Of a stretch of DNA of 56,244 nt, positions 35,291-56,244 are shown in pieces. The position numbers and the translations under genes were made by a program. The DNA is from a virus: the IMG/VR virus record IMGVR_UViG_3300025872_000068, positions 1 through 56,244 of that record; one strand, written 5' to 3'. The number at the start of each line of letters is the position of its first letter. Position 1 is the stretch's first letter. The notes under the pieces are model-generated. The model had not been told where the DNA came from, did not search any database, and saw only the letters and a program-made list of their open reading frames with translations.

Positions 35291-35767
35291 GTGGAAGAGT
35301 TTCAGATTCGTCGTGGACCCGGTCGTCCGCCAAAGCAGGTTTCGGAATCAGCACCGAAGCCTGCGGTTGACGGGGAGTCCACGGCGTCCGTAGTGGAGCA
35401 GAAGCCTGCTCCGCAGCCAGTTGTCCGCAGCGAGGGCAATGAGGCGTTGCAGTCCAGGCTTCGTTCGATGGAGCTTCAGCTGCAGGCGATTTCGGGAAGG
35501 CGTGAAAGCCGGGACGAGGTCTTTGATAAGGCACGAGAGATTGTTGACCGAATCAAGGGGGCTCGTCTCAAGTCAGGTGTCAATCAGTGGCGAGTCCATA
35601 ACTCTCGCTACCGAGATGCGGCTGGTGATCCCGTGACGCATGAGTTCTGGTCTGATGCATCGGACCCGGAGTCTGCACGAGCGGACTATAATCGCCGCAA
35701 TGGCCGTTACTGGTCGCCTGATGAGGGTGACGATCCGCTGAAGTTCGAGTTGATCGTGGAGCAGTAA
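35291..35767 (+). CDS. Small protein with AT-hook-like N-terminus
   Basis: A 158-residue protein from GTG 35291. It begins MEEFQIRRGPGRPPKQVSES with an AT-hook-like GRPPK motif, followed by a Pro/Ala/Gln-rich linker, and a charged coiled region (LQSRLRSMELQLQAISGRRE, then DEVFDKAREIVDRIKGARLK). The C-terminal third is mixed. It lies between the capsid and fibre genes and ends one base into the next ATG. DNA-binding or internal head protein is conceivable. Confidence 0.6.
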   Translation: MEEFQIRRGPGRPPKQVSESAPKPAVDGESTASVVEQKPAPQPVVRSEGNEALQSRLRSMELQLQAISGRRESRDEVFDKAREIVDRIKGARLKSGVNQWRVHNSRYRDAAGDPVTHEFWSDASDPESARADYNRRNGRYWSPDEGDDPLKFELIVEQ

Positions 35768-37824
35768 TGGCAAACGTCAAGCCGACTAGCAAGAAGTTTT
35801 CGCCTCTCGACCCTGATGTGAACTCAATCCCGGTTGGAGACTCTCTGCCTCCGGGTAAGTTTTCAGATGGTGCGCAGTTCTTTCACAAGGACAATAGCAT
35901 CCTTTACGTCTACGCAGACGGTGGGTGGCAGGCGACAACTGGTGCAGGAGGAGTGGTGGATGAGTTCATCGCTCTCTCCGACACACCTGGCAGCTACGTT
36001 GGTTCTGGCGAACTTTGGGTAACCGTCAAGGCAGATGCCTCTGGCGTTGAGTTTGTAAGCCCCGCCTCGGCTACCTCTCGCCTAGCCGTGATGACGGGTG
36101 CAACCGCTGGTGCGGCTGGGACCAAGGGAATGGTTCCGGCCCCGGCGGCGGGTTTTCAAGGTCGCTTCCTTCGGGGCGATGCATCGTGGCAAAATGTTGT
36201 TACCAGTGAGGTGGAAGTCACCCGTGGCTTCGGACCTCCGACTGGCCTGCCCAGCAGCACGAACGATCTGTATGTGGACCTGAACAGCAGTTCGATCTGG
36301 TATTCGACCGGATCGCTGTGGGAAAAGATATCTGTACCGAACGTCGCAGATGTCTACGCCACCATGCCTGCTGGGTATCCAGCCAATCCTTCGTCGCCAA
36401 CGCCAGCTGAGGCACAGGCTTATGCTGCGTCTCTTGGTCTGATTGGCCCGACCATTGTGTCTTATGCGGGTGGTGGTAGCACCACAGACCCAGCATTCGC
36501 ATGGTTCATCGACTCTGTCGGCTCTGCGGTTTGCATCCGCGACCTGACAGCACAGAAGGGTGATACGGGTGCCGCAGGTCCACCGGGGCCAGCGGGCGTG
36601 GTTTGGCAGGGTAACTGGTCATCTTCTGCCAGCTATGCCACCAATGATGCCGTACTCTATCAGGGTACGTCATGGCGTGCCTTGCAGTCCCACACGAACC
36701 AGACTCCGGTTGCTGGTGCCTACTGGGCTGTGCTTGCCCAGAAGGGCGCGGATGGCGGCCTGTCCGATGGGGACAAGGGTGACATATCCGTCACTTCGAG
36801 CGGCAGCGTCTGGACGGTCGATGCGAACACTGTCACCTACTCCAAGATGCAGGATGTCTCCGCAGCATCCCGGTTGCTTGGCCGTGGCTCAACGGGAGCT
36901 GGTGACCCGCAGGAGATCAGCCTTGGCACTGGCCTGACCATGACCGGGACAACGGTCAGCGTCAACGGCACGATACCGGACAACGACTACGGCGACATTC
37001 AGGTTACTGGTGGCGTGTGGAAGGTCGATGATGACGCAGACATTCAGCTCAGGTCTGCGTTGCTTGGTTCGACCAGTGGCGGTGGCGTTGGCCTACACAG
37101 CGCACAAGCTAACCTGCTTGAGGTGCGAAGCGGTGCAGCTCCCAATAAGCTGGCCGTGTACAACGCATATCAGTCGCCGACAAATCACGAGCGAATTCTG
37201 ATCGGGTGGTCTGGGAACATAGGCTGCATTGCCACCGAGAAGGGATCTTCTGGCGGTGCGGCTCGTTCCATCTCGATTGCGACTGATGGCACAGAGCGGA
37301 TCAATGTTGGTGCCAACGGATTTATCCGATTCAATCAGGCTTATACCTTCCCAAATACGGTCGGTACTTTGGGTCAGGTGCTGGGAGTAGGCACTGGCTC
37401 CGTGCTGGAGTGGTTTACTCCATCGGATTCACAGCCATCGGTATCGAACCCGAAAATGGTAACCAGCACGCCGCATGGGTTTACAGCCGCGAGCATTGGC
37501 TATCCGCTGTTTGCAGCGACAACCTATGTGGATACGGACCCAGAGCAGTGGCCTACTGGCATCTTTGCCGAGTATCTCAACGCCACTTCGTTCCGATATG
37601 CAACCGAGGGTTCTTCCCTGGACATTGCATCCAGTCTGTTCGAGGTTGGATACAGCATTGACGCAGGCGGGCGTTTTGTCTTTTGGGACTATTCAGTTCA
37701 GATCTATAAGGCCGAGAAACCCGTCGACTCGGATCCTAGGCTTGGGCCATTGCTGATGGTGAACTACCTGGAGTCTGGCAAGTTCAACTGCACCGTACTC
37801 GGATTGGGGCCAAGCTCATGGTAG
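35767..37824 (+). CDS. Tail fibre with collagen-like and carbohydrate-binding segments
   Basis: A 685-residue protein. The N-terminal 250 residues are beta-rich repeats. A short collagen-like stretch (KGDTGAAGPPGPAG, about 265-278) leads to a chitin/carbohydrate-binding-like unit (WQGNWSSSASYATNDAVLYQ, about 282-301). Then come DGDKGDISVTSSGSVWTVDA (about 335) and SRLLGRGSTGAGDPQEISLG (about 365), fibre repeats also present in the gene at 41856. The C-terminal region resembles a fibre tip (FIRFNQAYTFPNTVGTLGQV). Such proteins trimerise and bind host surface sugars. Confidence 0.82.
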   Translation: MANVKPTSKKFSPLDPDVNSIPVGDSLPPGKFSDGAQFFHKDNSILYVYADGGWQATTGAGGVVDEFIALSDTPGSYVGSGELWVTVKADASGVEFVSPASATSRLAVMTGATAGAAGTKGMVPAPAAGFQGRFLRGDASWQNVVTSEVEVTRGFGPPTGLPSSTNDLYVDLNSSSIWYSTGSLWEKISVPNVADVYATMPAGYPANPSSPTPAEAQAYAASLGLIGPTIVSYAGGGSTTDPAFAWFIDSVGSAVCIRDLTAQKGDTGAAGPPGPAGVVWQGNWSSSASYATNDAVLYQGTSWRALQSHTNQTPVAGAYWAVLAQKGADGGLSDGDKGDISVTSSGSVWTVDANTVTYSKMQDVSAASRLLGRGSTGAGDPQEISLGTGLTMTGTTVSVNGTIPDNDYGDIQVTGGVWKVDDDADIQLRSALLGSTSGGGVGLHSAQANLLEVRSGAAPNKLAVYNAYQSPTNHERILIGWSGNIGCIATEKGSSGGAARSISIATDGTERINVGANGFIRFNQAYTFPNTVGTLGQVLGVGTGSVLEWFTPSDSQPSVSNPKMVTSTPHGFTAASIGYPLFAATTYVDTDPEQWPTGIFAEYLNATSFRYATEGSSLDIASSLFEVGYSIDAGGRFVFWDYSVQIYKAEKPVDSDPRLGPLLMVNYLESGKFNCTVLGLGPSSW

Positions 37825-39896
37825 CGAAGATCAAGACCACCAAGGACAATGTGATCTCGGTTGTCGGAACTGGAAACGCAGAAATCGACAACATGCGATT
37901 TGCGCTGGCTGTGTCCGCAGCTAATGCGTTTTATTCCAGCACTGGCAGGCCAGCAACGATCCTCATTGATCGTGAAGTTCACATCATTGGTGAGCATATA
38001 TTCACCAGCCCGACTGGCCTCGAATGCACCAAGGGAAGCTGGCTTGTCCGCGACGACTCGACTGCCAAGGTTTCATACAACACTTCCCAGTCTGCCACAT
38101 TCTCCTATTCTTCGGCGGCCTATGGTGAGATGACTGACACGGCAGCAGGTGCTGCTGTTATCAGCCTTCCTTACGAATACCAGTTGGCAGCTGGCGATTG
38201 GGTTTTGATCTACGGGTTCAACCAGATCAGCGACATCACGCCACACTCTACGGGAACGAAGAGCTTCCCCATGGAGCTACAGCGTATCAACCGTAGAGCG
38301 TCCACGGGAGCGTGCAACGGGACGGGGACTCGGTGCGACTATGTCTTTGACGACTTCCTCGACGAGGTCTACCAGACGGTGACCAGTGGTGGCGTCACCA
38401 AGGCACCAAGAGTCGCCGTGCTGCCGAACATGATGAGTGGCATTCGGATCAGGAACTTCAACTACCGAATGAAGGATGCTGCCTACAGTGCCAGCACCGC
38501 TCCGTCCGTTTACATGTCGGCTCTGTATTTTGAGCGATGTCATGACATTGAATTGAGCAACTGCTCTTTCGGCGAGTGGCACCCAGGGACAATGGGGTTC
38601 AAGTACTGCGCCAATGTTCGTCGCCATGGCTGTAACTGGTCGTCTGTTGAGAACTTCGAGTACGACTCGGAGACTGGAGTTGTCTACGGAATTCTGGATT
38701 CTGTCTGTAATGGCATGGATATCCAGAACTGCACTTTCGGTGGAATGAGGCACGCTTACACGACAGGCGGAACTGCGGCAGCTTCAATCCACAGCCCGTC
38801 AACGTCAGATCGCGTTGGCACTGTAAAGAGCGTCCTGATCCAGGGTAATCGCTTTGGGAATAATGGTCGGCTTTCTGGATCCACGCTTTCCGGCATGGCG
38901 ATGGTCAACCCTCACTGCGAGGGAAGGCGGATTGTTATCAGCGATAACCAGTTCAATGTGCCTGGAGAGCAGAGCGTCAGGAACATTGGGATCACGGTCA
39001 GATACAGAGACGCTGTCATTCGCAACAACACTTTCAACTGCGGGCCAGCGGCTGCTCCGTTGATGATCTACGGCACGAGGGCTACAGTCGCCAACAACAC
39101 TTTCAACGGCGGCCTGTACTGCTCTGTGAATTCCCTGAACAGCTTTGTGAACATTGATAAGGTTCGGTTCGCTAACAACACGTTCCGAAACTTCGTGTCA
39201 CCGGCAATTCATATCACGACTGGCACCGACCACGAGATCGTCGGCAACACGTTCGACAACTGCGGCTACCAGCTGGTGACCGGATACAAGAAGGCTGCGA
39301 TTGAGGTTGCCTCGCTGACGGCTGGTGGAAGCATCCGCATCAAGGATAATTCGATTGCTAAGTACTCGAATGACTTTGCAATCCACACTGGGAGCCTGCT
39401 GCCGTCACAGGTCATCCTCGATGGCAACCTTTGCAGTGGATATGGCGGCTTGTCCTTGGGGCTTGATCGGTCCTTGGCGAACACTGCCGAGATTGAGATG
39501 CTGTCCCTGCCGAGGAACAACGGTTCCATCAAGGCCGTGGTTATCCAGCAGCAGGGCCATGCCTTGACTGCGTCGAATGTTGGAATGCCGATCACTGGAA
39601 GCCACGCTGTCTACAACGATGTGACGGCTGGATTCGGAGTCATTGGCGTGATGGCCGACAGAATCGACTCGAACCACTACATCCTATACCTGCCACATGA
39701 GCCGTTCCTGCTGTCGCCTTCGTTGGTGGCCGCAGGATATATCTTCCCGACTGGTGGCCGAGATCTCTACTGGGATCAGTCGCAGCTTAAGTACGTTGCA
39801 ACCAAGCCTGGCGATTCCGCAGGCGACTCTGTTGCGATCATCCGCGTACATGCATCCAAGACCAGTGGCTATCTGGTCAGCGTCAAAAGCATTTAA
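37818..39896 (+). CDS. Beta-helix tailspike (putative polysaccharide depolymerase)
   Basis: A 692-residue protein overlapping the fibre gene by 7 bases. After an N-terminal region, residues about 200-540 show repeated rungs of the right-handed parallel beta-helix with short periods: GIRIRNFNYRM, HDIELSNCSFGEW, MDIQNCTFGGMRH, AVIRNNTFNCGP, TVANNTFNGGL, KVRFANNTFRNF, HEIVGNTFDNCGY, SIRIKDNSIAKYS. This is the pectate-lyase/tailspike architecture. The C-terminal domain is probably the trimerisation or binding domain. It may degrade a capsular polysaccharide of the host. Confidence 0.82.
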   Translation: MVAKIKTTKDNVISVVGTGNAEIDNMRFALAVSAANAFYSSTGRPATILIDREVHIIGEHIFTSPTGLECTKGSWLVRDDSTAKVSYNTSQSATFSYSSAAYGEMTDTAAGAAVISLPYEYQLAAGDWVLIYGFNQISDITPHSTGTKSFPMELQRINRRASTGACNGTGTRCDYVFDDFLDEVYQTVTSGGVTKAPRVAVLPNMMSGIRIRNFNYRMKDAAYSASTAPSVYMSALYFERCHDIELSNCSFGEWHPGTMGFKYCANVRRHGCNWSSVENFEYDSETGVVYGILDSVCNGMDIQNCTFGGMRHAYTTGGTAAASIHSPSTSDRVGTVKSVLIQGNRFGNNGRLSGSTLSGMAMVNPHCEGRRIVISDNQFNVPGEQSVRNIGITVRYRDAVIRNNTFNCGPAAAPLMIYGTRATVANNTFNGGLYCSVNSLNSFVNIDKVRFANNTFRNFVSPAIHITTGTDHEIVGNTFDNCGYQLVTGYKKAAIEVASLTAGGSIRIKDNSIAKYSNDFAIHTGSLLPSQVILDGNLCSGYGGLSLGLDRSLANTAEIEMLSLPRNNGSIKAVVIQQQGHALTASNVGMPITGSHAVYNDVTAGFGVIGVMADRIDSNHYILYLPHEPFLLSPSLVAAGYIFPTGGRDLYWDQSQLKYVATKPGDSAGDSVAIIRVHASKTSGYLVSVKSI

Positions 39897-40225: not shown

Positions 40226-40895
40226 GGCCATTCTCGTTCTGGTATCATGCGTCTCCGCAGTGGCGGTTACGTTCGTGGGTGGGGCAGCCCAGGTACAACA
40301 GCAGGTTGCCGTGACTACCAACTCCAGCACGCATATCCAGGTCGCACCCTCTGCGTCCCCAGGTTCTGACATCACCTGGGAGATACGCGATCCCGTGGGC
40401 CATCCATTCCTTGCCAGCAAGGACAATCGTTCGATTGTTTTCTTTACTGAGGGGCTGTCGAGGATCGTCGTTGTCTGTGATGTCATCGACTGGGATCTCC
40501 GAAAGCGGGACCGTGTCGAGACGATTGTGACTCCAGGCAGCAGTCCACAGCCGGTGGACCCAGTAAAGCCCGTTCCTGCTCCTAGGCCCAGTGGCTTTGC
40601 TGGTGAGGTCTACGATCAGGCAGTCCCAGTGAAGCGGCCATCTGAGGCGATCAAACTCTCGGACAACTACGAGAACGTATCGGCCCAGATTGCTGCGGGT
40701 GGAATAACCACACTGGAGCAGGCCAACGAGGAGATCAACCGTCAGAATAAGAGCCTGAGACTTGGTGCCGAATGGAAGCCGTTTGGTGCTTGGATCGGAT
40801 CGCAGTTTGACCAGAAGGTCGATGAGCTTCCAGAGGCCCACGACATGATGCACGAGACTTCGATTGGGCTAGGAGCAGCTGGGGGTAGGGAATGA
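40209..40895 (+). CDS. Signal-peptide protein with Ig-like and Pro-rich regions
   Basis: A 228-residue protein from ATG 40209 (GGGAGG 6 bases before), overlapping the upstream stop. MMNPRKAILVLVSCVSAVAV then TFVGGAA is a signal peptide or anchor. Residues 30-110 form a beta sandwich (ITWEIRDPVGHPFLASKDN, FFTEGLSRIVVVCDVI). A Pro-rich linker (SSPQPVDPVKPVPAPRPSG) precedes a helical C-terminus (ITTLEQANEEINRQNKSLRL). Predicted to be exported and probably periplasmic. Coupled to the following papain-like gene by ATGA. Part of the candidate lysis or envelope module. Confidence 0.65.
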   Translation: MMNPRKAILVLVSCVSAVAVTFVGGAAQVQQQVAVTTNSSTHIQVAPSASPGSDITWEIRDPVGHPFLASKDNRSIVFFTEGLSRIVVVCDVIDWDLRKRDRVETIVTPGSSPQPVDPVKPVPAPRPSGFAGEVYDQAVPVKRPSEAIKLSDNYENVSAQIAAGGITTLEQANEEINRQNKSLRLGAEWKPFGAWIGSQFDQKVDELPEAHDMMHETSIGLGAAGGRE

Positions 40896-41854
40896 GTGAG
40901 AACTTGGGTTGGATTCCGCCAAGCGAGCGAGACCTGACTCAACGCCGGATGACCCTGGCGTTTGATCGGGAAACGCCTGCCTTCGGTGAGGCCAACCCTT
41001 TTCTTATGGAGCTACCGAAGGAAGCCTTGCTCTATCACCTGGAGATCAAGGCTACTGGCAACCTGCTGCCTCGCTACTACCAGCTGAGCGGAAGCTGTGT
41101 TGGCTTTGGTGGAGCTAGAGCCTACTGCTTGGCCCAGTGTGGAGATGTCGTCCACCGTGGTGACAGGGAAGAGATCAAGCTGGTGCATCCACTGCCCACT
41201 TACGGCAAGGGTCGCCAGCTAGCTGGATATCGCAGCAAGGGGGAAGGCAGTTTCGGTGCAGCACAGGCAAGGGCCGTCAAAGAATGGGGCATGCTGGCCC
41301 TTGATGACCCACGACTTCCGAAGGCTACGCTGACCGATGGATGGCTCAAGTGGTCTTCCAAGACAGAGATCGACTGGAGCTACTCGCCGCAGTGGCCCGT
41401 GAAAGAGTCGGCACTGTTCGAGGATGCAAAGAATCACGTTATTCATTCAGTCTCCAGGGTACGGACGCTTTTGGAGCTAAAGCAGGGACTAGCCCAGGGT
41501 TATGCAGGGACGATGGCTTGCATGTTCGGATCGAAGAACATGCGGGTGAGAGATGGCTATCTCATCGCGCCCTGGGATACACGCTGGGCGCATCAGCAAA
41601 CCATTGCTGGCTATACGGAGCATCCCGTGCATGGCGACCTTTTCGCGATAGACAATCAGTGGAACAAGAACGCCCACCCATTGTGTCCCAAGCTGTCAAG
41701 CATCGGCTCCGGCGTGAACGGTAGCTACTGGGTGACTGGCGATACGATGAAGCAGATACTCGCGAGCGAAGACTCTGAGGTGTTCCTCCATAGCAATACC
41801 GCTGGCTTCCCTGCACGCAAGATCAGTTGGGGCAACATGGGGATCGGAGAATAA
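40892..41854 (+). CDS. Papain-like cysteine peptidase, candidate lysis endopeptidase
   Basis: A 320-residue protein. The motif [20 protein letters not shown] (about 66-85) has Q, then the S-C active-site pattern with the catalytic Cys in SGSCVGF, as in C1-type peptidases. Later, [11 protein letters not shown] (about 230) gives the catalytic His, and AIDNQWN (about 252) the Asn. The order Q-C-H-N matches the papain fold. Substrate unknown. Context (membrane protein, exported protein, then this) allows a peptidoglycan-cleaving endolysin role, or a head/tail protease. No lysozyme or amidase is found elsewhere. Confidence 0.7.
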
Positions 41855-41855
41855 C

Positions 41856-44363
41856 ATGAGCTGTAAGATCACAGCGGATTGCGTCTGCGGCCTAGAAGAA
41901 TTCGTCCTCGACGTAGTCGCTGGTGGAGGCGGAGGTGGCGGTGGAGAATGCAACCTCACGACGGGTGACAAGGGTGACATCACTGTCAACACGATCAACA
42001 GCTGGTCGATTGACAACGGTGTCGTTAGTTACCCCAAGATCCAGAACGTCAACACGGATCGGCTGTTGGGTCGCGTCTCTGCTGGAGCTGGCATTGTTGA
42101 AGAGATTCTGTTCACGGACGTAGCGCAGGAACTGCTGACGCAGAACACGATCAACTCGATTCGCACTTACCTTGGCCTGGGAACTTCCAGCACCCAGAAC
42201 ATCAACTACTTTGCACTAGCTGCTCACACGCACGATGCCGCTGACATTGTCTCCGGCACGATGTCGACAGCTAGGCTTGGAAGCGGTACTGCAAACAGCA
42301 CCACCTTCCTTAACGGTGCGAACCAGTGGGTGACGATCAACGCTGCTGCCATCGCGGATGGAGACAAGGGCGATATCGTTGTCAGTGGCTCTGGGGCAAC
42401 CTGGACCTTTGATCCATCGGTGGTCACTACTTTCGCACGAACGCTACTGGACGACAGTTCGGCAGCTGCTGCACGGGCTACTCTTGGTATTACCGACCTG
42501 ACGCTGTCTGCGTTTGGTCAGGCGATGATCACCGCAGCGAACTCGGCAGCTGGCACGGCCCTGCTCGACTCGTTTACCTCGACCGCCAAGGGACTCGCTC
42601 CTGCCTCCGGTGGTGGCACGAGCAACTTCCTTCGTGCTGATGGGACATGGGCTGCACCCACGACGTTCATCGGCCCCGATACCGTCACAACCACGACGAT
42701 CATCAACGACGCGGTGACCAACGCGAAGCTGGCCGAGATGGCAGCCAACACGATCAAGGGTAATAACACAGCCGCCACGGCTAATCCCTTGGACCTTACC
42801 GGCACCCAGGTCACTGCGATGCTGGATGCATTCAGCAGTTCTGCGAAGGGCCTTGCTCCTGCTTCTGGCGGAGGGACTGCGAACTACCTGCGTGCAGACG
42901 GCACATGGGCAGCACCTCCTGGTTCTGGCGGAGTCACAGACGGCGACAAGGGTGATATCACTGTCACTTCGTCCGGTGCCACCTGGACGATTGACAATGG
43001 CGTGGTTAGCTACGCCAAGATGCAGAACGTGTCGTCGTCTGACAGGCTGCTTGGCCGTGCTTCTGCCGGTGCTGGCGTTGTGCAGGAGATCACCTGCACT
43101 AGCCTTGGCCGAAGCATTCTGGATGATACGAGCGTCACCGCCGTCCACACCACCCTGGACCTGAACACCTACTACAGTCAGGTGGGCCATACGCATGACG
43201 CTGGTGATGTCACGACTGGCGTATTCAATACAGCTCGCCTCGGCACTGGATCGGCAACGTCCTCGACTTACCTTCGCGGCGATGGAACATGGGCATCGGT
43301 CAGCGGCGGGACCGCGACTCCTGCTGGGAATGACAACGAAATCCAGTTCAACAACAGCGGTGTGCTTGGTGCGGACACGAACTTCACCTGGGACGGGACT
43401 GAACTGTTCATCGGACGCACTTCTGGAACTCCTGGCAGGATCAGGCTGGAGACCGGCACTGGCACTGCTTCCGTTCCACTAAACGCAGCAGTGTCGCTGA
43501 TTCAGACCTGGAACTACGGTGCCTCTGCCGCTGTTGCTCCCATTCAGGTGGCAATCACAGACACTGCTTCTGCCGCCGTCAGCAAGGTTCAGACAGTGGC
43601 GGTTAGTGGCGTGACGGTCAGCAGCATCCAGAAGGATGGCCTTACTTGGGGCAAGGCTGGCTTCATGACCGACAACGTCAACGCATCTGGATTCAGCTAC
43701 GAAGACGGGACTGGTCTGTTCTGGGATGCCCTGAGCGAGATCGGCCAAAGGGATTACATCTCTGCCCAGAAGTTCTCTGTGTACAACAGGTCGGCACTTA
43801 ATGCTCCTGGCACGACGTATGAGCGCGGCGTTCTGGACTGGAAGGGCGAATCCGGCGTCTTCAGGGTAGGCACAGAGAAGGGTACTGGCGTTGGTGTAGT
43901 TGCGAGGCCAATGCACCTGATCACTGATGGCACTGAACGCATCGAGATCAGTGCTACCGGAACCATTCAGTTCAACAATGCCTACACATTCCCGACCTCT
44001 GCTGGCAGTGCTGGTCAGTCGTTGGTGAGCAACGGTTCCGGTGGCCTTACGTTCCAAGGTGTAGTGTCGTCATCTGTGTCCACTACTGCCAGCACTTCGA
44101 TCACCCTGGCTGCCTCTGACAGTGGCAAGGTGATCTTCACTGCCGCTGGCAGTGCCGTGACGGTTACTATTCCTGCTTCCTTGCCAGCTAACTTCAATGT
44201 GCGGATCATCCAGGGTGGCAATGGTCAGGTTACTGTGCAGGCAGCGTCTGGTGTGACGCTGACCAGCTTGGCAAATAAGGTCGCCAGTGCTGGCGTCAAC
44301 GGCGTCATGTGGTTGACCGGCATTTCCACGAACTTCTACAACCTCAGCGGCGACCTCGCCTAG
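41856..44363 (+). CDS. Long tail fibre with repeated motifs
   Basis: An 835-residue protein with GGAG before its ATG. A Gly-rich linker ([12 protein letters not shown]) follows a 20-residue head. Multiple fibre repeats: 'GDKGDI.V' at about 37, 170 and 365, 'RLLGR.SAGAG' at about 69 and 395, '[20 protein letters not shown]' and '[20 protein letters not shown]', and two 'LAPASGGGT..(N/F)LRADGTWAA' elements. The C-terminal 250 residues hold a sugar-binding-like tip and a [19 protein letters not shown] segment similar to the fibre at 35767. Probably trimerises; receptor recognition at its distal end. Confidence 0.85.
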
Positions 44364-44371
44364 GTGGACTG

Positions 44372-45934
44372 ATGCCCTACACGTTGATGGATTTCAGTGA
44401 CGGTGTCGTCCGTGATGCGGCTTGGGCCAGCACCCAGCCCAACGGCAGTCGGGTCGTGATCATTGATGGCAAGGGCGACAGTGTCGTTGATCAGTTCAGC
44501 ATCGCCGTGGGAGAGGGTCGCAATGGGAGCAATGCCCTTCGGGTCAGGTCCGTACCAACCTCAACCGGCGGGGACAACCTGCCAGGCTTCTGGGTAATTC
44601 CGTACATCAAGACGGCGAGTGGGCTGATGAAGCCCAAGGACTCTCGTGGGTACATGGTTCCGCCAGGTACTCGCGTGAATCGATTTGGGGCATGGCTGAA
44701 GTTTCCAGTTGGATTCCAGCAGGCATATACGACCGCGATTGCCGCAGGCACCAAGTATTTCAACTTCAACATCGGGACTTACCACCATGATCCCGGCCTG
44801 ATTGACGGACGCGATGTGCAGGAGACCAACAACTGGCACGGCTACTATCAGGTAACTCTGCGGCATGATCTGGCCCAGGGCGACTGGATCCACATGCTGG
44901 TCAACGAGATGCCAAGTCACCAGCGTGGTTACGGTCAGTACCGAGTGCCGAATCGTTTCACAGGCACAGCTGGCGGCATGTGGGATACGCTGACTCGGCT
45001 TTACCTGGATACATCGCCATACAAGGGTGATCCCGAAGTCCCGTATCCTGTGGATATGCTTGTCGATTCGATGTACTGCGATTACGTCGACGAGGACATG
45101 GGCATCCAGGTGCAGATCGAGAACTTCGAGGACGGCCAGGACTTCACCTGTGTCAGCGGTCAGCAATACAGCCTGACTGTTACGATCACCAATTCAACAG
45201 CAGCGGCAGTGACCGGCAAGCTGTACCACAGATCGCACTACAGCATGAGTCCACAGTTGATTGACGCGGTGACCAGTGCCAACGCACACAACACCAACGT
45301 CACGATTGCACCCAATTCGTCGAAGCTGTTTATTTTCAAGATCACTCCAGCCAGCACTAACAACTACATGACTGGCGTGGTGTTCTCACCCTCCTCTCAG
45401 AATATTCCGCCAGTTGGTCCGCTCCAGCCCAACCTGAGCGATCAGAGAACTGCCGTCAGCATGAACGTGTACGGCCAGTACAGCCCATGGGATGGCAAGC
45501 TAGCAAGTGCCTGTATCAAGACCCGGCCTCAGGCAACTGTGACGCTCCCCCTCAAGCCCTGGTCTAGGGGCGGCAAGGTGTACTACGGCGCGGTCGGTGG
45601 CAACATTACTGGCACCTTACCGGCAAGCTCTCCTTCGGGAGAGACGATGACCTTTAGCAAGGTCGATCAGCAGTCGACGGGTGGAAACATCACGATTGAA
45701 GCTGACGGGGACTTCACATTCGTCCCAACCGCTGGGTTTGAGGGTGCCTACTTCTTCCGCTATTTGATCAACGACGGCAGCCAGAATTCCGATATCTTCG
45801 GTGCCTGGGTCTACGCTGGCGAGGACGAAGGTGGTGGTGGTGTTGATCCGCCACCTACTGTGCCGGAACTTAAGATCCAGATGACGGGTGCCAGCACCAT
45901 GGGCTTCGCCGATGGCAAGTTGCTGGTGAGGTAA
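44372..45934 (+). CDS. LamG/cadherin-like virion protein
   Basis: A 520-residue protein from ATG 44372, 9 bases after the fibre gene. Residues 1-250 look like a jelly-roll lectin domain (RFGAWLKFPVGFQQAYTTAI, TRLYLDTSPYKG, PYPVDMLVDSMYCDYV). The middle (about 250-345) is an Ig-like domain (YSLTVTITNSTAAAVTG). Residues about 415-475 have a cadherin-like/VCBS pattern (GNITIEADGDFTFVPTAGF, FFRYLINDGSQNSDIFG), then a Gly/Pro tail and a short end domain. Such domains help adhesion. Probably a fibre or baseplate-associated protein. Confidence 0.65.
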   Translation: MPYTLMDFSDGVVRDAAWASTQPNGSRVVIIDGKGDSVVDQFSIAVGEGRNGSNALRVRSVPTSTGGDNLPGFWVIPYIKTASGLMKPKDSRGYMVPPGTRVNRFGAWLKFPVGFQQAYTTAIAAGTKYFNFNIGTYHHDPGLIDGRDVQETNNWHGYYQVTLRHDLAQGDWIHMLVNEMPSHQRGYGQYRVPNRFTGTAGGMWDTLTRLYLDTSPYKGDPEVPYPVDMLVDSMYCDYVDEDMGIQVQIENFEDGQDFTCVSGQQYSLTVTITNSTAAAVTGKLYHRSHYSMSPQLIDAVTSANAHNTNVTIAPNSSKLFIFKITPASTNNYMTGVVFSPSSQNIPPVGPLQPNLSDQRTAVSMNVYGQYSPWDGKLASACIKTRPQATVTLPLKPWSRGGKVYYGAVGGNITGTLPASSPSGETMTFSKVDQQSTGGNITIEADGDFTFVPTAGFEGAYFFRYLINDGSQNSDIFGAWVYAGEDEGGGGVDPPPTVPELKIQMTGASTMGFADGKLLVR

Positions 45935-46748: not shown

Positions 46749-47332
46749 TGCCAGCGTCCGCCGTCACCCTGCTAGACTGCTCTGGTGCATCGCACGAGGT
46801 CTGTGCCTACGTCGCTGCGGTGACGGCTGGGATGTCGGATGATGGCAGCACCATGATCGCCAAGGTGACGGCGGTGGTTACGGGGGACATTGGATTCCAG
46901 GCCAGGACGCTGGTGTTCGACGAGACTGAGTACACGGTATTCGCTACCAAGCAGGTTCCCTCAGCATGCACTACCAAGGTGGAGGCGTTCAGGGTCATGC
47001 TCAGGGGATGTGATGTCTGTGATGGGGTCGCCAAGACGCTGGCTGTACCAGAGAGCTGTGACGAGGATAGCACTGATGCCTACGGTGCGCTGGCAGTGAG
47101 GTTCTCTGCTCGCCACATATCTACGGACTCTCGCCGCCGAGGGGATATCGTGAGCCACACAGAGAGCTACGAACTGATGTTCGAGGGTAGTCCTGAATTG
47201 ACGACGGACATGGTCATTGAGGGATGTGGTAAGCTGTACAAGATTCGAGAGATCAGGTCGCAGTCGGATATTCGCAGGCCGATGCGTGTTCTGGCAGAGG
47301 TATCCACCCGTCCGAGGGCCGACATCCGATGA
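46745..47332 (+). CDS. Putative head-tail adaptor
   Basis: A 195-residue protein coupled by ATGA to the preceding gene. N-terminal beta/helical region (AVTLLDCSGASHEVCAYVAA), beta strands (DIGFQARTLVFDETEYTVFA), then a Cys pair (MLRGCDVCDG) and the C-terminal beta-rich part (YKIREIRSQSDIRRPMRVLA). The order adaptor, gp10-like, tail terminator, tail tube is the standard neck order, so a stopper or adaptor role is likely. No clear family signature. Confidence 0.6.
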   Translation: MMPASAVTLLDCSGASHEVCAYVAAVTAGMSDDGSTMIAKVTAVVTGDIGFQARTLVFDETEYTVFATKQVPSACTTKVEAFRVMLRGCDVCDGVAKTLAVPESCDEDSTDAYGALAVRFSARHISTDSRRRGDIVSHTESYELMFEGSPELTTDMVIEGCGKLYKIREIRSQSDIRRPMRVLAEVSTRPRADIR

Positions 47333-47781
47333 TCAGGGACAGAACCGACCAGATGCTCAAGCGTGCCACTGACAAGCTAATGAACGGCATCGAGTCCGCC
47401 ATGGCGAGGCATGCGGATGTTCTCCGTTATCTTGTAGATACTCCAGTTGATGTCGATGCCAGAGGTAGGGTTATCCGCCGAAGCAAGCCAGGAGAGTACC
47501 CACGGCTGGAGACTGGGCAGTTGCAGAACAACATCGCCTGGGGAATCGACCGAGAGGGTCTTGAGGGCAGGGTTGGCGTTAAGGGATACGGCACTGACGA
47601 GCAGTTCCTGCACGCAGACAGGCCGAAGCGTCCGTATAGCTGGGGTCCAGCCGATGAGAATATAGGTGGGTTGGCCCTAGTGTGGCTGGAGGAGTTCGGG
47701 GACCGCCGGGGCATCAAGGCCAGCTACGAACTGCGTGATATGTTCATTGCCCGTGAGATCATCGAGGGGGCCGAAGGGTGA
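47329..47781 (+). CDS. HK97 gp10-like neck protein
   Basis: A 150-residue protein overlapping upstream by 4 bases. The segment SKPGEYPRLETGQLQNNIAW (about 53-72) is the gp10-like hallmark 'G-x-P-P/x-R-x-x-T-G-x-L-x-x-S/N-I' found in head-tail joining proteins, followed by GVKGYGTDEQFLHADRPKR and a C-terminal helix (LALVWLEEFGDRR). These proteins link the portal to the tail. Start supported by ATGA coupling. Confidence 0.82.
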   Translation: MIRDRTDQMLKRATDKLMNGIESAMARHADVLRYLVDTPVDVDARGRVIRRSKPGEYPRLETGQLQNNIAWGIDREGLEGRVGVKGYGTDEQFLHADRPKRPYSWGPADENIGGLALVWLEEFGDRRGIKASYELRDMFIAREIIEGAEG

Positions 47782-48197
47782 GTTGCTGTTGCGATATCAA
47801 CACGGAGAGTCCATGCACCATCGATGAGGCTGTTAAAACCATACTCGTCAATGAAGGGGTGCTGGCCTCGATTCATTCGGGAGCCTTGGCCCATCAGGAC
47901 GAGCAGAACTGGCCTGTCATGGTGTTCGAGATGCTGGAGCCCTCGGTTCCCGTATCCAACGGATGCTGTTGGCAGTCGGATGTCACGCTCCAGCTTCGCG
48001 TCTACACCACGACGAAGGTGGCTGGAGTGCAGTTGGCCCAGGAGGTATACGCAATCCTGAAGCCACTGGAGCCAATCCAGAGTCTTGCTGGCAACTTCAT
48101 CATTTTCAGGCAGACAATTCCGCAGCAGCAGGATCTGCCGGATGGCATTTTTATGACCAGGGTTAACTACCGCCTGGTTGTGTGGACACCTAAGTAA
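47778..48197 (+). CDS. Tail terminator (gpU/DUF3168-like)
   Basis: A 139-residue protein from GTG 47778. N-terminal helix with Cys cluster (MSCCCDINTESPCTIDEAV), strand-rich middle (WPVMVFEMLEPSVPVSNGCC, WQSDVTLQLRVYTTTKVAGV), then helix (AQEVYAILKPLEPIQ) and a final strand RVNYRLVVWTPK. The order helix, strand, strand, helix, strand resembles the DUF3168/gpU fold that caps the tail tube. The place between gp10-like and tail tube genes supports this. Confidence 0.78.
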   Translation: MSCCCDINTESPCTIDEAVKTILVNEGVLASIHSGALAHQDEQNWPVMVFEMLEPSVPVSNGCCWQSDVTLQLRVYTTTKVAGVQLAQEVYAILKPLEPIQSLAGNFIIFRQTIPQQQDLPDGIFMTRVNYRLVVWTPK

Positions 48198-48211: not shown

Positions 48212-48796
48212 ATGGCGTGTGGATTATGCCCTGGATATTTCAGCGTCTGGTACTTGAAGGATGTTGGCGAAGGAAGCCCAGACTTCCAGTGGATTCAGAT
48301 CGGCAACATCGATTCTTGGACGCTGGACGCGAATGTGCAGGAGGCTACCAAGAAGCGTACCTCCAGCACGAACGGTCTGGCTGTGAAGTTCTGCGAAGAC
48401 ATCGTGGACTACACCGCATCGGTGACGACCACTGTCTGCGAGACGGACTGGCTGTGGTGCCACATCCTTTCCGATTCTGGAAATAAGAATCAGATGTCAG
48501 ACACCCGCGAAGGGTGGTGGTTCTTCGGATGGGGCAAGGACGGCACTTCGCCGGAAGCTCCTGATGGATGGACCACCATGGAGATCGCGGCTTGGGAGGT
48601 CTGGCGAGCTGGCGGTGCGGAAGCAGGTCCGCATCAGGACAGCGGTGTTTTTGTTTACGGGAAGGTCGTTCCCGGCGGCATTGGCGGCGACAACACGGCA
48701 ACCGACCCAACGACGGCCACGTTCACAATCAACGTGTCCTTTGGGCCGATCCTGCCTGAAGTAAACGCCAGCTGCGATCTTGTTGCGCCTGAGTAA
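48212..48796 (+). CDS. Major tail (tube) protein
   Basis: A 194-residue protein with GGGAG upstream. Beta-rich with Gly/Thr (GNIDSWTLDANVQEATKKRT, DYTASVTTTVCETDWLWCHI), and an end sequence ATFTINVSFGPILPEVNASC. The size and composition are typical of tail tube subunits, and it sits between tail terminator and chaperone genes. The Ig-like extra domain found in some tail tubes is not evident. Seven Cys, unusually many. Confidence 0.82.
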   Translation: MACGLCPGYFSVWYLKDVGEGSPDFQWIQIGNIDSWTLDANVQEATKKRTSSTNGLAVKFCEDIVDYTASVTTTVCETDWLWCHILSDSGNKNQMSDTREGWWFFGWGKDGTSPEAPDGWTTMEIAAWEVWRAGGAEAGPHQDSGVFVYGKVVPGGIGGDNTATDPTTATFTINVSFGPILPEVNASCDLVAPE

Positions 48797-48817: not shown

Positions 48818-49285
48818 ATGAAACCGACTGGTGTGGATTTTGATGTCGTGATTGATGGTGAGAAGCAGACGTACTACATCAAGCCTGATGTGTTCTCTGA
48901 GTCCACCATGACGAAGCTGGCCGCTTACGTTAAGGCGAAGCGGTCGGAGACCCGGAGGGAGATGCTCCGTGATATCGCCGATGCTTCCAAGGGATTGCCC
49001 GAGGATGCCATCAAGGCGATGACTCAGGAGGTGATCCGCAACGGGCTGGACAACGCCTCAGTGGACTACGAGACAGCCATTCAGGCACTCCAGTCCGCCG
49101 ATGGCGAGGGTCTTGCTATCGCCCTTGAGATGAATGTCGACGGCATTAGCTCTCGTCATGAAGCTCGCAAGGTGATGTCTGCGTACCCGAACGTGGCAGA
49201 CTTGATGGCGAAGGTCGTGCAAGCTGGCATGACTGCCCTGGAAGCTGCGCAGGAGTATGACCCCAAAACCGGCCTGGGAAACTGA
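48818..49285 (+). CDS. Tail assembly chaperone (gpG-like)
   Basis: A 155-residue protein with GGGAG upstream, between the tail tube and the tape measure, the classic place for gpG. Beta N-terminus (GVDFDVVIDGEKQTYYIKPD), then helical (STMTKLAAYVKAKRSETRRE and AIKAMTQEVIRNGLD). Ends with a -1 slippery site GGGAAAC directly before its stop. It binds the tape measure during assembly. Confidence 0.85.
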   Translation: MKPTGVDFDVVIDGEKQTYYIKPDVFSESTMTKLAAYVKAKRSETRREMLRDIADASKGLPEDAIKAMTQEVIRNGLDNASVDYETAIQALQSADGEGLAIALEMNVDGISSRHEARKVMSAYPNVADLMAKVVQAGMTALEAAQEYDPKTGLGN

Positions 49286-49324
49286 TCCCGCCCCGTGGTG
49301 ATGGCGTGAAGTCCATGTCACGGG
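49276..49324 (+). promoter_or_regulatory. Programmed -1 frameshift site and hairpin
   Basis: Slippery heptamer G GGA AAC at 49276-49282, in the 0 frame of the chaperone, three bases from the TGA stop. A 6-pair hairpin CCCGTG (49292-49297)/CACGGG (49319-49324), with inner ATGG/CCAT (49301-49316), begins 9 bases downstream. The layout is the same as in the G/GT genes of lambda. Confidence 0.88.
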
Positions 49325-49515
49325 AGGAGGGAGACGTATCCCTCGCGAGGGAATACCACCTGTCACTGGACCAGATACGCGGGCTGAACCAGTACGACAA
49401 GCGATTGATGATGGGCTGGGTTCCCTTCAATCGAGAGCTTGCCGAAAAAGCTGCGGCTGACCATGTCTCTGGGATGATGGCAATGGTCAAACGCCACGGG
49501 GTCAAGCATGGCTGA
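49282..49515 (+). CDS. Frameshifted C-terminal part of tail chaperone (gpGT-like)
   Basis: Open in the -1 frame from the slippery site through CTG ATC, with the stop at 49513-49515. After the slip the product is a 232-residue fusion of gpG (155) with 77 residues including SREEGDVSLAREYHLSLDQI and NQYDKRLMMGWVPFNRELAE. A stand-alone start (GTG 49306) is possible but less likely. It overlaps the tape measure start by 8 bases. The gpT-like domain recruits the tube protein to the tape measure. Confidence 0.82.
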   Translation: MIPPRGDGVKSMSREEGDVSLAREYHLSLDQIRGLNQYDKRLMMGWVPFNRELAEKAAADHVSGMMAMVKRHGVKHG

Positions 49516-52500
49516 AGAATTTGATCTGATCAGTGCGTTCATCTCTGTCTCGATACGCAAGCAGAGTCTTGAACAGGTCGAATCGCAGATCAAAGGAATA
49601 GCCGAAAGGCTGAAGTCTCTCAAGGCGTCCGTTGGGTTACGCCTTGTTGGTCGCCAGGATTTTCGCAAGGAGCTTAAGGCATTCCTTGACAAGCTCCCGA
49701 AGGGCAAGGTCAAGGTCACGCCAGTCATCGACGGAAAGAAAGAATTCAAGGATGCTTTCAGAAAGCTAAAGAAAGATGCTGGCGACAAGCCGATCAAGGC
49801 CACCGTCAAGATCGAGACTGGCGGTGCTGAGAAGGCGATCAACAATCTAGTCGGTAAAGCCAAAGTCATTGCTACTGCCGCACGGCGTGCTGGCGAGGAC
49901 ATCGACAAACTCAATCGAGAGATTGAGCGATGGGGTAGGATTCGCGGCAGGTCTGCTGAAGCCGAGACTCTTCTCGGAATTACTGGCAAGCCAAACTTCG
50001 GCAGCATGAAGCAGATCGAAGAAGTCAAAGCGCGAATGCGCTACTATGACAGTCTTCGTAGTCAAGCCGAAAGAATTTCTGAGCTAACTGCTGACATCCA
50101 AGACTGGGGAACTGGGCAAGGCAGGGCGGAGAAGGCTCAGGAACTTATCTCCAGGGTCGGAGCAAAGGGCTTCGGTTCCAGCGGTGACTTCCGTGCGATA
50201 CTCCGCGAGATGCGTGCAGTCGACAAGGCGATTGCCAGCACGGAGAGGAAGGCTGAGGCGATCTCGTTTGCCAATAGCTGGGGCAAGGCTACAGGCAATA
50301 TCGAGGCAGCCAAGAAGGCAATTGCTGAAATAGAGTCCAAGGACTTCTTCAGCCAGAGAGATCTTGCTGCGGTTAGGGCGGTCGCCAGGGAGTACGACAA
50401 GATCTCCTCTGATGCCGAGAAGATCGCACAGCTGAATGCAAGGATCTCGGAGTTCGGTGAGAAGCCAGGGCGGCAGAAGGTAGCACAGGAGTTGATGACT
50501 CGCGTCAACGCTCCTGGGTTTGCCGTGGCAACTCAGTCAAACGCGGTGCTTCGCGACATGCGTGCTGCGGACAGGCAGATTGCCAGCATGTTTCGCAAGA
50601 ACGAAGCAGCTGCGTACCTGAACAACTGGCAAAGACTGAGTGGCAAGGTCAAAGAGACACAGCAGCTCTTGGAAATGGTGAACCAAACGAAGTTGTTCAC
50701 CAAGGAAGATTTCGCCGCCATCCGCCAGATGACAAAGGAGATTGATCAGGTATCTGCCGCAGCAGCAAGGGCTCAGGCTGCATTAAACAAGGCCAGCAAC
50801 CAACTGAAGATTATTTCCAAGCCAGACCCTCGGGCTATGTTCAAGTTTCGCTCTGACTTTGTGCCGATGCAAGACATTCTTGCAAACACAATGGATCTGG
50901 ATGCGAAGAGGGCGCAGCAGCAGGCCGATGCAGAGAAGCAGCGACAGGACAATCTTAAGCGAGCAGCAGCAAGGGCAGCGGCAGAGGGCAGGAGAACTGC
51001 TAATGAGTTCAGGGCGCAGAGGGCCAGGCGAGCTACTGCACTGCGTGGTGCGTTGTTTGAGGCTGGCTTCGTTGCTGGCCCAGCTGCTGGCATCCTTGGA
51101 AACCTTGTCGGCGTCAAAAACCAAACAAGCGCTTTCATACAGAACAGCCAGCTTGCCCAGCGGGCAGCGAGTAAGTTCCGAGTAAGCATCGGTGCGCTTG
51201 GCGCAACAGCTGGAGTCGCCGCGAGCGTTGTGACCGCTGCTGTTGGTGGAATCGTTGCTGTCTTTGGGCAAGCGTTTTCCGTGATAAGCCAATTCAACCA
51301 GCAGGCAATCGCTGGTCTAAAGGGCGCACTGAGTGCAGTTATTGGGCCAGCACTTGCTTTGTTCCAGGCAATTCGCGGAATCGCAACCTACCTCCCGCTG
51401 GTGGCAGCTGGTATCGCGGGCTTCGTTGGCGAGACGTTGACGAAGGCGACTGTGGAGTTTGACAAGATCCAGTCGCTGTTCAACTTCACGTTCGCAGATC
51501 AGGCAGCGTCGCAGCTCAACCTTGTGCGTCAGGTGAGCGATGCATTTGGGTTGAGCCTCGATGCGTTGGCGGTTGGCTATGGCAAGCTGGCGGCTGCTGC
51601 CAAGGACAGCGGCGTAACCCAAGAGGAGATACGCCAGCTATTCATCGGCACCTCGTCCGCTGCGGCAGTATTCAAGCTAAACCAGGGCGACCTGGATGGC
51701 GTGTTCCGTGCCTACCAGCAGATCATCTCCAAGTCCGTTGTCAGCTCTGAGGAGTTGCGTCAGCAGTTGTCTGAGCGGTTGCCTGCGGCATTCTCACTAG
51801 CCGCCAAGTCTCTCGGTAAATCGCAGCAGGATTTGAACGAAGCCTTGGCGAATGGCAGTGTCACGGCAGAGGAGTTTATCCCTGCGTTCGGCAGGGCTCT
51901 GCGGCAGGCTTACGACCAGAACGCTTCTGGCATTGTCGACACTCTGCCAGCCAAGCTAAATCGCCTGCAGAATTCGCTGCTCGATCTCCAGAGATCTGCC
52001 GAGGGTACTGATTTCCTTGAGTCGTTTGTTGACCTGAAGCAGGGTCTGATTGACCCGTTCATCAAGGACGGTGCAATCAAAAATGCACTCAAGAATGTAT
52101 TTGTCGAGGCTGGTAATGCCTTCAGGTTCTTCACTGCTCAGATACCACTGGCAATAGAATTGCTGAAGAATGTTTGGCGAGCGGTGCGTCCGCTGGTGGA
52201 GGCGTTCGCCACGTTGCAGCTGGTGTTCAGTGCGCTTGCCATTGCCGCCGCCAAGGAGTTTCTTGATGTACGCAGGAATGCGGAAATAGGACTTGGTGAC
52301 GCGATCCTGAAGGTTAAAGAGTTTTCCGACAACATCAAGTCCGCACTGAACCTCGACCTGTCTGACTTCAAGTCCATCATGGGATTTGTCAAAGTAATTA
52401 TCGTGAATTCGGAACTCGCATTGGCTGCTTTTCTAGAGGCACTCAACGGTGCGATCCGAGTGATTATTACGTTTGCATCAACCCTTTATAGCCAGATAAT

Positions 52501-53227
52501 TCCGCTGATGTTCGAGCTTGGCGTGCAGATGGGCAAGGCCATTGGAAATGGGTTAATGATGGCACTGACTGGTGGAGACAATAGGCTGAGGGATGCGACG
52601 AATAGGCTGGCCGACGTGGGGACTTTGCTGCGCGATAGGGAGGTTACTGAGGTACTAAGTCCATTCCTTCCCCCTAGCAGACGAAAGCTAACGCAAGACG
52701 AGATAAGCAAGCTTAACGTAGAGAGACTTGCTCTCACTTCAGAGGTATTGCGACTTGAAAAGGCTGGAAAGCCAGGCGGATTGGGCGGCTTGTTTGCTGA
52801 GGCGATTAGTTTTGCTGGCTCCAAGGCATTCGACGAACTGTCTGGTATCAATCTCGAACCATTCGAGAAGATTGGTGCGCTGTCAAAGAAGGCCCAGGAG
52901 AATCTTGCCGAGGTGCAAAAGGAGCCGAAGCGAGATTTGTCGTTCCTTGAAATTGCACTGACGGAATTGAGGAAGTCGCTTGGCACTGGTGCTGCAACCA
53001 CATCTGATTTTGAATCGCAGTTCTTTGGCTTCGAGGAGTTCCAGCGATTCCTGCAAAGCGGTGAGCAGGTGCGTGTTGCAGAGAACACGCAAAAGATCTA
53101 TGAAATAAGCCAGCAGCAATTGGATGTGCTAAACAAGATGAACACGAACCAGGCGTCATTAAACAGCCTGCTAAATCTTGAGGGTGCTTACATGCGAGCC
53201 CCGTCCACCCTGCGATGGGAGAACTAA
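49508..53227 (+). CDS. Tape measure protein
   Basis: A 1239-residue protein, the longest here. Residues about 136-427 hold five helical repeats of about 58 residues with WG/FG turn, A-x-E-L and a long helix (for example NREIERWGRIRGRSAEAE and NARISEFGEKPGRQKVAQ). Residues about 465-520 are very Ala/Arg-rich coiled coil. Two hydrophobic regions follow (about 560-600 and 613-647). The TMP N-terminal domain (SLFNFTF..., SSEELRQQLSERLPAAF) lies at about 648-805, then more helices. Length sets the tail at an estimated 180-190 nm by the usual 1.5 angstrom per residue rule. Confidence 0.94.
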   Translation: MAEEFDLISAFISVSIRKQSLEQVESQIKGIAERLKSLKASVGLRLVGRQDFRKELKAFLDKLPKGKVKVTPVIDGKKEFKDAFRKLKKDAGDKPIKATVKIETGGAEKAINNLVGKAKVIATAARRAGEDIDKLNREIERWGRIRGRSAEAETLLGITGKPNFGSMKQIEEVKARMRYYDSLRSQAERISELTADIQDWGTGQGRAEKAQELISRVGAKGFGSSGDFRAILREMRAVDKAIASTERKAEAISFANSWGKATGNIEAAKKAIAEIESKDFFSQRDLAAVRAVAREYDKISSDAEKIAQLNARISEFGEKPGRQKVAQELMTRVNAPGFAVATQSNAVLRDMRAADRQIASMFRKNEAAAYLNNWQRLSGKVKETQQLLEMVNQTKLFTKEDFAAIRQMTKEIDQVSAAAARAQAALNKASNQLKIISKPDPRAMFKFRSDFVPMQDILANTMDLDAKRAQQQADAEKQRQDNLKRAAARAAAEGRRTANEFRAQRARRATALRGALFEAGFVAGPAAGILGNLVGVKNQTSAFIQNSQLAQRAASKFRVSIGALGATAGVAASVVTAAVGGIVAVFGQAFSVISQFNQQAIAGLKGALSAVIGPALALFQAIRGIATYLPLVAAGIAGFVGETLTKATVEFDKIQSLFNFTFADQAASQLNLVRQVSDAFGLSLDALAVGYGKLAAAAKDSGVTQEEIRQLFIGTSSAAAVFKLNQGDLDGVFRAYQQIISKSVVSSEELRQQLSERLPAAFSLAAKSLGKSQQDLNEALANGSVTAEEFIPAFGRALRQAYDQNASGIVDTLPAKLNRLQNSLLDLQRSAEGTDFLESFVDLKQGLIDPFIKDGAIKNALKNVFVEAGNAFRFFTAQIPLAIELLKNVWRAVRPLVEAFATLQLVFSALAIAAAKEFLDVRRNAEIGLGDAILKVKEFSDNIKSALNLDLSDFKSIMGFVKVIIVNSELALAAFLEALNGAIRVIITFASTLYSQIIPLMFELGVQMGKAIGNGLMMALTGGDNRLRDATNRLADVGTLLRDREVTEVLSPFLPPSRRKLTQDEISKLNVERLALTSEVLRLEKAGKPGGLGGLFAEAISFAGSKAFDELSGINLEPFEKIGALSKKAQENLAEVQKEPKRDLSFLEIALTELRKSLGTGAATTSDFESQFFGFEEFQRFLQSGEQVRVAENTQKIYEISQQQLDVLNKMNTNQASLNSLLNLEGAYMRAPSTLRWEN

Positions 53228-54463: not shown

Positions 54464-56244
54464 ATGAAGATTATCAAGGGCAGGGGGTATTTAGGAAGCA
54501 CCAACCAGTTCAGTGTTGGCCCGGTAATGGGTCAGGAACTGGTGCGCAAGGCACAGGAGTATCTATCTACCGGCAACGGATCGAAGCTGATCGGCCCCAA
54601 CATGGAGGCCATCGTCTCTGATATCCAGGGCAATGGATTCTTCTTCGCCACGCCTCAAGAGACGATCCTCTATGCCACGCTAACCCAGTCTGGCAATTAC
54701 AACAACTTCACCGCATCTAGCGGCACTGCTGCATACACTCGTCTAGAGGTCAACAACAAAGACTGGGCTCAGGTTCCAGGCTCTGGCGTCACTTACGAAT
54801 ACAGCACCCTTTACGAATCTCCAGATTATGTCGTTGAAGTCTGGAACACGCATAAGGGGATGTGGCTGTGGGAAGGCGTGACCTACAAGTTTACGCTCGA
54901 CCCCGACTCTGGACGATTCATCCCAATTGACCTGCCTCTCCAGCCAGTGGTCATGGCGCGGGTAGTCAACGATGACATCGACTTCTCCACGGAGGGGCAG
55001 GCAGTTGTCTACAAGAATGAATTGCCGTTCTTTGTGGAGCCACCCGGTGGAGGCACGCCTGATGAAGTGATCATCAAGGTGCAGCATTACTGGGTGAAGT
55101 TTGCGGAAAAGATTCCGCAAGGCACTAATGTGCTGGTGCAATGGATGCCTGAACGCGGCCAGCAGGAGCAGGGCGCATGGGTGATTATCGGTGCAGATGT
55201 CGCCACCGAGTCGGATGTGATCATTGCAGAGATCACTGCCAGCCCTGGAGTCGATGACTGCGGATCGGTGAGCAGGAGCCCCGTCTGCCTCTATCCTGCA
55301 CGGAGGGTCGCCAACAATCCAGCGGCAGCCACTCAGTGCGACGACACACCGTGGACTGGCATCGAAGAAGAGATCTATCTGGTCGATATCACCGGATGCG
55401 ATCCGGTAACGACACTGAAGAAGGGTGATCGATACCTTGCGAAGAGGCTGGGGATCATCACTCTAGGTGGGCAAGATCGCGAGCTTTATGCCATCCGTGG
55501 CGACAAATCCTCGACCTCGGTGAAGGTCATCGAGATTGACTACGACGAAGAGGGTACGCCGAACTGCGAGACGGTCCAGACCAATGATGGTTGCGTCTAC
55601 AGGGCGATCATTTCTAACAATAGCATTGGTGACCAATGCTCTGGTCAGTGGTCTGCTGGCGATCCTGTCTGGGCAATCAACGTCGCAGCCTGCAATCAGC
55701 CATCTTCGGTCAAGCGTGGCGACCGATTCGTTGGGCTTGGTCTTGGCAGCCTCACGGTGGGAGGCGAGACGCGGGAACTCTACGCCTTCCGGCATGTTGA
55801 TGGCGGCGACCAGACCAAGATCGTCACTGTGCTTCCCTATGCGAGCCAGCCCCTAGCCTGCCAGACCATCGATCCGGCGGCTCCTGACTGCATCCTCAAT
55901 GGCAGGATCTCCAGTGCGCTGGCCTTCGGGGCTCCTGACGAGTTCGGCAACGAATGCAACGTACAGAACTGGACGAACGAGGACGAGATCTGGATCGTCA
56001 ATCTCGCCACCTGCGGGGACAAGGTGCAGATCCCATTCGGCGAGCGGTTCATCGGCCAGTACATCATGGACTACGAGCATCAGGGAGCCACCAAGCCGCT
56101 CTATGCGATCTACTACCGTCCCTCCTCCGCAGGCTCAAGTGCGATTGTCGCGGTGAATGTGATTGGCCCCGAGAGTTGCCATCCGATCACGCCCAATAAC
56201 AGCTGCGTGTACCCTGGCAGCTTGATCTTTAATGGCGACGATGA
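54464..56244 (+). CDS. Tail-tip/fibre protein with Cys-rich repeats, N-terminal part
   Basis: Starts MKIIKGRGYLGSTNQFSVGP and runs open to the end of the window. The first 250 residues are non-repetitive, with a helix and strands (PVMGQELVRKAQEYL). From about 55250 come repeat unit 1 (C, IEEEIYLVDITGC, KGDRYLAKRLG, ELYAI), unit 2 (55561-55794: VWAINVAACN, GDRFVGLGLG, ELYAF) and unit 3 (55857-56140), each ending in a linker with Cys. The window end is identical in frame to bases 2-318. The complete protein would be 810 residues if circular. Repeats like this may form a stack of small beta domains with disulphides. Confidence 0.8.
   Translation, partial: MKIIKGRGYLGSTNQFSVGPVMGQELVRKAQEYLSTGNGSKLIGPNMEAIVSDIQGNGFFFATPQETILYATLTQSGNYNNFTASSGTAAYTRLEVNNKDWAQVPGSGVTYEYSTLYESPDYVVEVWNTHKGMWLWEGVTYKFTLDPDSGRFIPIDLPLQPVVMARVVNDDIDFSTEGQAVVYKNELPFFVEPPGGGTPDEVIIKVQHYWVKFAEKIPQGTNVLVQWMPERGQQEQGAWVIIGADVATESDVIIAEITASPGVDDCGSVSRSPVCLYPARRVANNPAAATQCDDTPWTGIEEEIYLVDITGCDPVTTLKKGDRYLAKRLGIITLGGQDRELYAIRGDKSSTSVKVIEIDYDEEGTPNCETVQTNDGCVYRAIISNNSIGDQCSGQWSAGDPVWAINVAACNQPSSVKRGDRFVGLGLGSLTVGGETRELYAFRHVDGGDQTKIVTVLPYASQPLACQTIDPAAPDCILNGRISSALAFGAPDEFGNECNVQNWTNEDEIWIVNLATCGDKVQIPFGERFIGQYIMDYEHQGATKPLYAIYYRPSSAGSSAIVAVNVIGPESCHPITPNNSCVYPGSLIFNGDD
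55927..56244. repeat. Right copy of the terminal overlap
   Basis: Aligns to bases 1-318 with 11 mismatches and no gaps; see the left copy. Both read in the same frame of the tail gene. Confidence 0.85.

Follow-up and report, generated by a model that had tools for sequence, protein, structure and literature searches.

A −1 programmed ribosomal frameshift of the lambda G/GT type is predicted, with a probability of about 0.94, to set the ratio of two tail assembly chaperones in an uncultured phage known from the IMG/VR viral record IMGVR_UViG_3300025872_000068, the 56,244 nt of which were analysed here (the window). Two overlapping frames, an in-register slippery heptamer, the stop codon that follows it and a downstream hairpin are present and conserved, and the −1 frame is under coding selection from the heptamer on; from these we infer that a fraction of the ribosomes slips at this site. 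The features of the region are as follows, with L025 denoting the corresponding locus of a diverged relative.

47329–47781, + strand: candidate neck or tail completion protein, 150 aa (PHROG 879, E = 0.015 in the window and 3.3e-07 in L025)
47778–48197, + strand: candidate tail terminator, 139 aa (weak match to PHROG 123, E = 0.15 in the window and 0.014 in L025)
48212–48796, + strand: candidate major tail protein, 194 aa, immediately 5' of G (by position; a PHROG of unknown function matched weakly, E = 0.002)
48818–49285, + strand: G-like gene, a 155-aa ORF in the 0 frame from ATG 48818 to the stop TGA 49283–49285; predicted tail assembly chaperone (by position)
49261–49285, + strand: overlap of the open 0 and −1 frames, 25 nt, the sole possible site of a frame change
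49276–49282, + strand: slippery heptamer G_GGA_AAC, in register with the G ORF and directly 5' of the TGA; found at this codon also in L002 and L025
49276–49515, + strand: T-like region, an open −1 frame read only after a −1 shift; C-terminal part of the predicted 232-aa GT fusion
49292–49324, + strand: predicted stimulatory hairpin, 9 nt past the heptamer, pairing CCCGTG (49292–49297) with CACGGG (49319–49324), plus ATGG with CCAT
49508–53227, + strand: tail tape measure protein, 1239 aa (Pfam TMP_3, E = 1.2e-23; PHROG 2335, E = 1.5e-38)

According to the ORF list and our reading of the sequence, the −1 frame is closed by a TGA at 49258–49260 and then stays open over 49261–49515, and because of this upstream stop any change of frame is confined to the 25-nt overlap. 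The last sense codons of the G ORF are CTG GGA AAC, and a −1 slip at the heptamer adds 78 further codons, stop included. An earlier sequence-only reading had placed a heptamer of the form X-XXY-YYZ just before the G stop and had proposed a 155-residue G, a 78-codon extension and a 232-residue GT, all of which agree with the frames found here. The second of the two overlapping ORFs thus lies in the −1 frame with the switch near the end of the first, as in systems of the lambda G/GT type, and the pair immediately precedes the tape measure gene, the start of which (49508) overlaps the T end by 8 nt. On the other side of G, the 194-aa ORF occupies the place expected of the major tail protein and was given no family assignment.

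Relatives were sought with G, T, the tail protein, the tape measure protein and the terminase among viral contigs, GTDB genomes and cultured phages, and across these searches two contigs holding the G/T pair were found. The terminase searches of IMG/VR returned nine related contigs; L016 gave L025, and the seven other terminase-related contigs were fragments without the G/T pair. In one of the two contigs with the pair (G003, IMGVR_UViG_3300044632_000832), G and T are 99% identical to those of the window, and this contig adds no independence. In the other (G007, IMGVR_UViG_3300047457_000907, locus L025), G and T are 62% and 66% identical to the window proteins, respectively, and conservation of the site across divergence is read from this one diverged relative. 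L025 has GGGAAAC at the same codon, a stop directly after it (TAA versus TGA in the window), a 9-nt spacer and the hairpin; persistence of the heptamer among relatives had been set as a test in the sequence-only reading, and the site passed it.

The strongest evidence for the frameshift comes from the substitutions that separate the window from G007, the pattern of which indicates that purifying selection passes from the 0 to the −1 frame at the heptamer. In the G gene, 44, 31 and 86 differences fall on codon positions 1, 2 and 3, respectively, and the corresponding counts for T, taken in the −1 frame starting at the heptamer, are 20, 11 and 45. A changepoint model using these rates placed the frame switch best at 49279, inside the heptamer (positions 49265–49285 lie within 2 log units), and was 45.5 log units better than a model with no switch. 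These substitutions also bear on the possibility that T is a separate gene, translated from a start of its own or by reinitiation once ribosomes have terminated at the G stop, with a coincidental heptamer. The −1 frame of the window does hold a GTG (49306) and an ATG (49315) shortly past the G stop; however, neither codon is kept in L025, where the first T-frame start is a GTG further downstream (11909 in that locus), neither is preceded by a Shine-Dalgarno-like stretch, and the GTG at 49306 lies within the hairpin loop. Moreover, the residues KLI-PRGDG-KS, which precede any common start, are conserved, and their changes follow the codon pattern of the −1 frame (1, 1 and 7 differences by codon position between the heptamer and the first T-frame ATG of the window). 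Since the two window starts are absent from G007, only ribosomes coming from G can translate the conserved residues just past the slip site, and we consider independent translation of T very unlikely.

Less probable still is that the two frames are a single long ORF broken by a sequencing or assembly error or by a recent mutation: indels can occur in metagenome contigs, but the same arrangement is present in three separate contigs including the window, one of them strongly diverged and ending G with TAA instead of TGA, which refutes this explanation for practical purposes.

GGGAAAC occurs five times in the window against 5.95 expected, and the heptamer alone is thus not enriched; when the end of G was redrawn with synonymous codons, some X_XXY_YYZ motif fell within the final 24 nt in 25% of the draws. 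Of 341 ORFs (at least 60 aa, both strands), G alone combines an in-frame heptamer in the final 30 nt with 50 or more further codons in the −1 frame, and in-frame heptamers of this kind numbered only six in the 8184 codons of the larger genes. Because the combination is unique among the 341 ORFs and every element of it is conserved in the diverged relative, it is not chance-like, though its single elements are unremarkable.

The hairpin was recovered at the coordinates and with the fold that had been proposed for it from the letters, two paired blocks starting 9 bases past the heptamer. Folding of the 70 nt that start at the slip site gave −32.9 kcal/mol (z = −3.16), and one of 200 shuffled sequences folded equally well; taken alone, the 45-nt segment with the hairpin ranks 50th for stability among 644 sampled segments. 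In the two distinct sequences available (window and L025), all ten base pairs of the stem are standard (z = −3.16 and −2.19, respectively); one pair differs between them by a double change, U-A to C-G, and another by U-A to U-G. No other 6-bp helix occupies a matching position in the two sequences, and sliding the partner strand by 1–3 columns of the alignment left 25–55% of the positions paired. Stem covariation had also been suggested as a check: the pairs are indeed kept with one double change in L025, but 239 of 500 shuffles did as well, and with only two distinct sequences this covariation is a single event and weak evidence by itself. A stable structure at short spacing past the heptamer, kept with a compensatory change between two distinct sequences, agrees with −1 programmed frameshifting stimulated by an RNA structure. 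Other candidate RNA signals were rejected: a pseudoknot that would pair the hairpin loop with sequence further 3' (a single weak 5-bp candidate in the window and none in L025, with none common to both), an upstream Shine-Dalgarno-like stimulator (AGGAG near 49250 in the window, absent from L025) and a second stem at the heptamer (GGGA/TCCC, broken in L025). Scans of the window for tRNAs and Rfam families gave no hits. Slippage of the RNA polymerase instead of the ribosome would likewise yield a −1 fusion, but the chance of this is very small, as runs of A or T in the overlap reach four bases at most, no such run of at least five occurs in G or T before 49445, and transcriptional slippage has no need of a conserved RNA hairpin at ribosomal spacing.

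Under the predicted ribosomal frameshift, most ribosomes would read G_GGA_AAC in frame and end at the TGA, giving the 155-aa G. Held up by the hairpin, a minority would slip one base back, the Gly and Asn tRNAs on GGA and AAC re-pairing in tandem with GGG and AAA, and would pass the stop to give the 232-aa GT. By analogy with lambda, G would coat the tape measure protein and GT would, in addition, recruit the major tail protein.

Neither G nor T matched a family in Pfam, PHROG or NCBIfam, and sequence comparison with solved structures gave no match. Their structure models were of moderate confidence (pLDDT 77 and 69, respectively), and all matches in fold searches with these models had E-values above 0.01, none being significant. 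Tail assembly chaperones diverge widely and often show low mutual similarity (PMC5009743), and for this reason the lack of a sequence or fold match speaks neither for nor against homology of the proteins. We infer the chaperone role of G and GT from gene order and from the conserved pair of products.

The region resembles lambda in having a G-type ORF followed by a −1 T ORF, a G_GGA_AA heptamer just before the stop, a position of both upstream of the tape measure gene, and a short and a long product (here predicted from sequence). The heptamer of lambda is G_GGA_AAG, ending in G where that of the window ends in C; unlike in lambda, there is an obvious and conserved hairpin, and no protein similarity to the lambda pair was detectable. 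The match to lambda G/GT claimed from the sequence alone hence holds for architecture and mechanism and not for sequence, since no family was matched by G or T, and the major tail protein is assigned by position only. In lambda, where G and GT are made at about 30:1, the binding partner of G is the tape measure protein and that of the T part is the major tail protein (PMC5009743). The identical heptamer, G_GGA_AAC, is the shift site of the same gene pair, g-t, in the haloarchaeal virus HCTV-1, which differs in having an archaeal host (PMC5009743). In E. coli, A_AAG is a more slippery A-site codon than A_AAC, as compared for A_AAA heptamers (PMC5009743); the weaker codon counts against a frameshift here, to the extent that E. 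coli can stand for the host of this phage.

A further comparison is offered by the Casjensviridae (chi-like phages), of which Klebsiella phage Salado and Ruegeria phage vB_RpoS-V16 were examined. Their tape measure proteins are related to that of the window over about 300 aa (30–33%), and a G of about 150 aa is followed by a T of about 70 aa in the −1 frame, which reaches the tape measure start or extends past it. In contrast to the window, the G/T overlaps of these two phages (L008 5380–5551 and L009 5407–5500) contain no canonical X_XXY_YYZ heptamer though T lies in the −1 frame, and the shift in these examples may use another motif. Such an absence is expected, because the canonical motif is missing from most annotated phage frameshift overlaps (PMC10885494, a tool paper). 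Profiles of G and T aligned to the Casjensviridae G and T with hhalign probabilities of 22% and 0.2%, respectively, and homology was not detected.

Several other observations concern the window as a whole. Its ends (1–318 and 55927–56244) are 96.5% identical, with 11 mismatches in 318 positions, and repeated stretches occur in the last ORF (from 54443 on). The genome may be circular or permuted and nearly complete, the cut that produced the contig lying inside a repeat. Three large proteins (35767–37824, 37818–39896 and 41856–44363) contain segments related to those of one another, as seen from tblastn cross-matches in relatives, which suggests a duplicated or repeat-rich tail fibre or structural module. 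The genes at 40892–41854 and 44309–45934 are 98% and 94% identical to those of L025, respectively, with neighbours at 37–68%, a pattern suggestive of recent recombination between the two phages at these places.

Frameshifting between G and T is an ordinary, widely known phage device that is widely conserved in long-tailed phages, and the present case leaves the understanding of tail assembly or frameshifting unchanged. It is conceivable, though rather doubtful, that G and T represent a new family of chaperones, not detectably related in sequence to the known ones, in a lineage for which no near cultured relative was found and which employs a eukaryotic-virus-like G_GGA_AAC with a simple, conserved hairpin in place of the A_AAG preferred by better-studied bacterial phages. 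A correct annotation of the tail chaperone gene, as G and GT, becomes possible in a lineage whose G and T proteins lack a database match, and one more natural G_GGA_AAC site with a hairpin becomes available for the study of slip codons outside E. coli.
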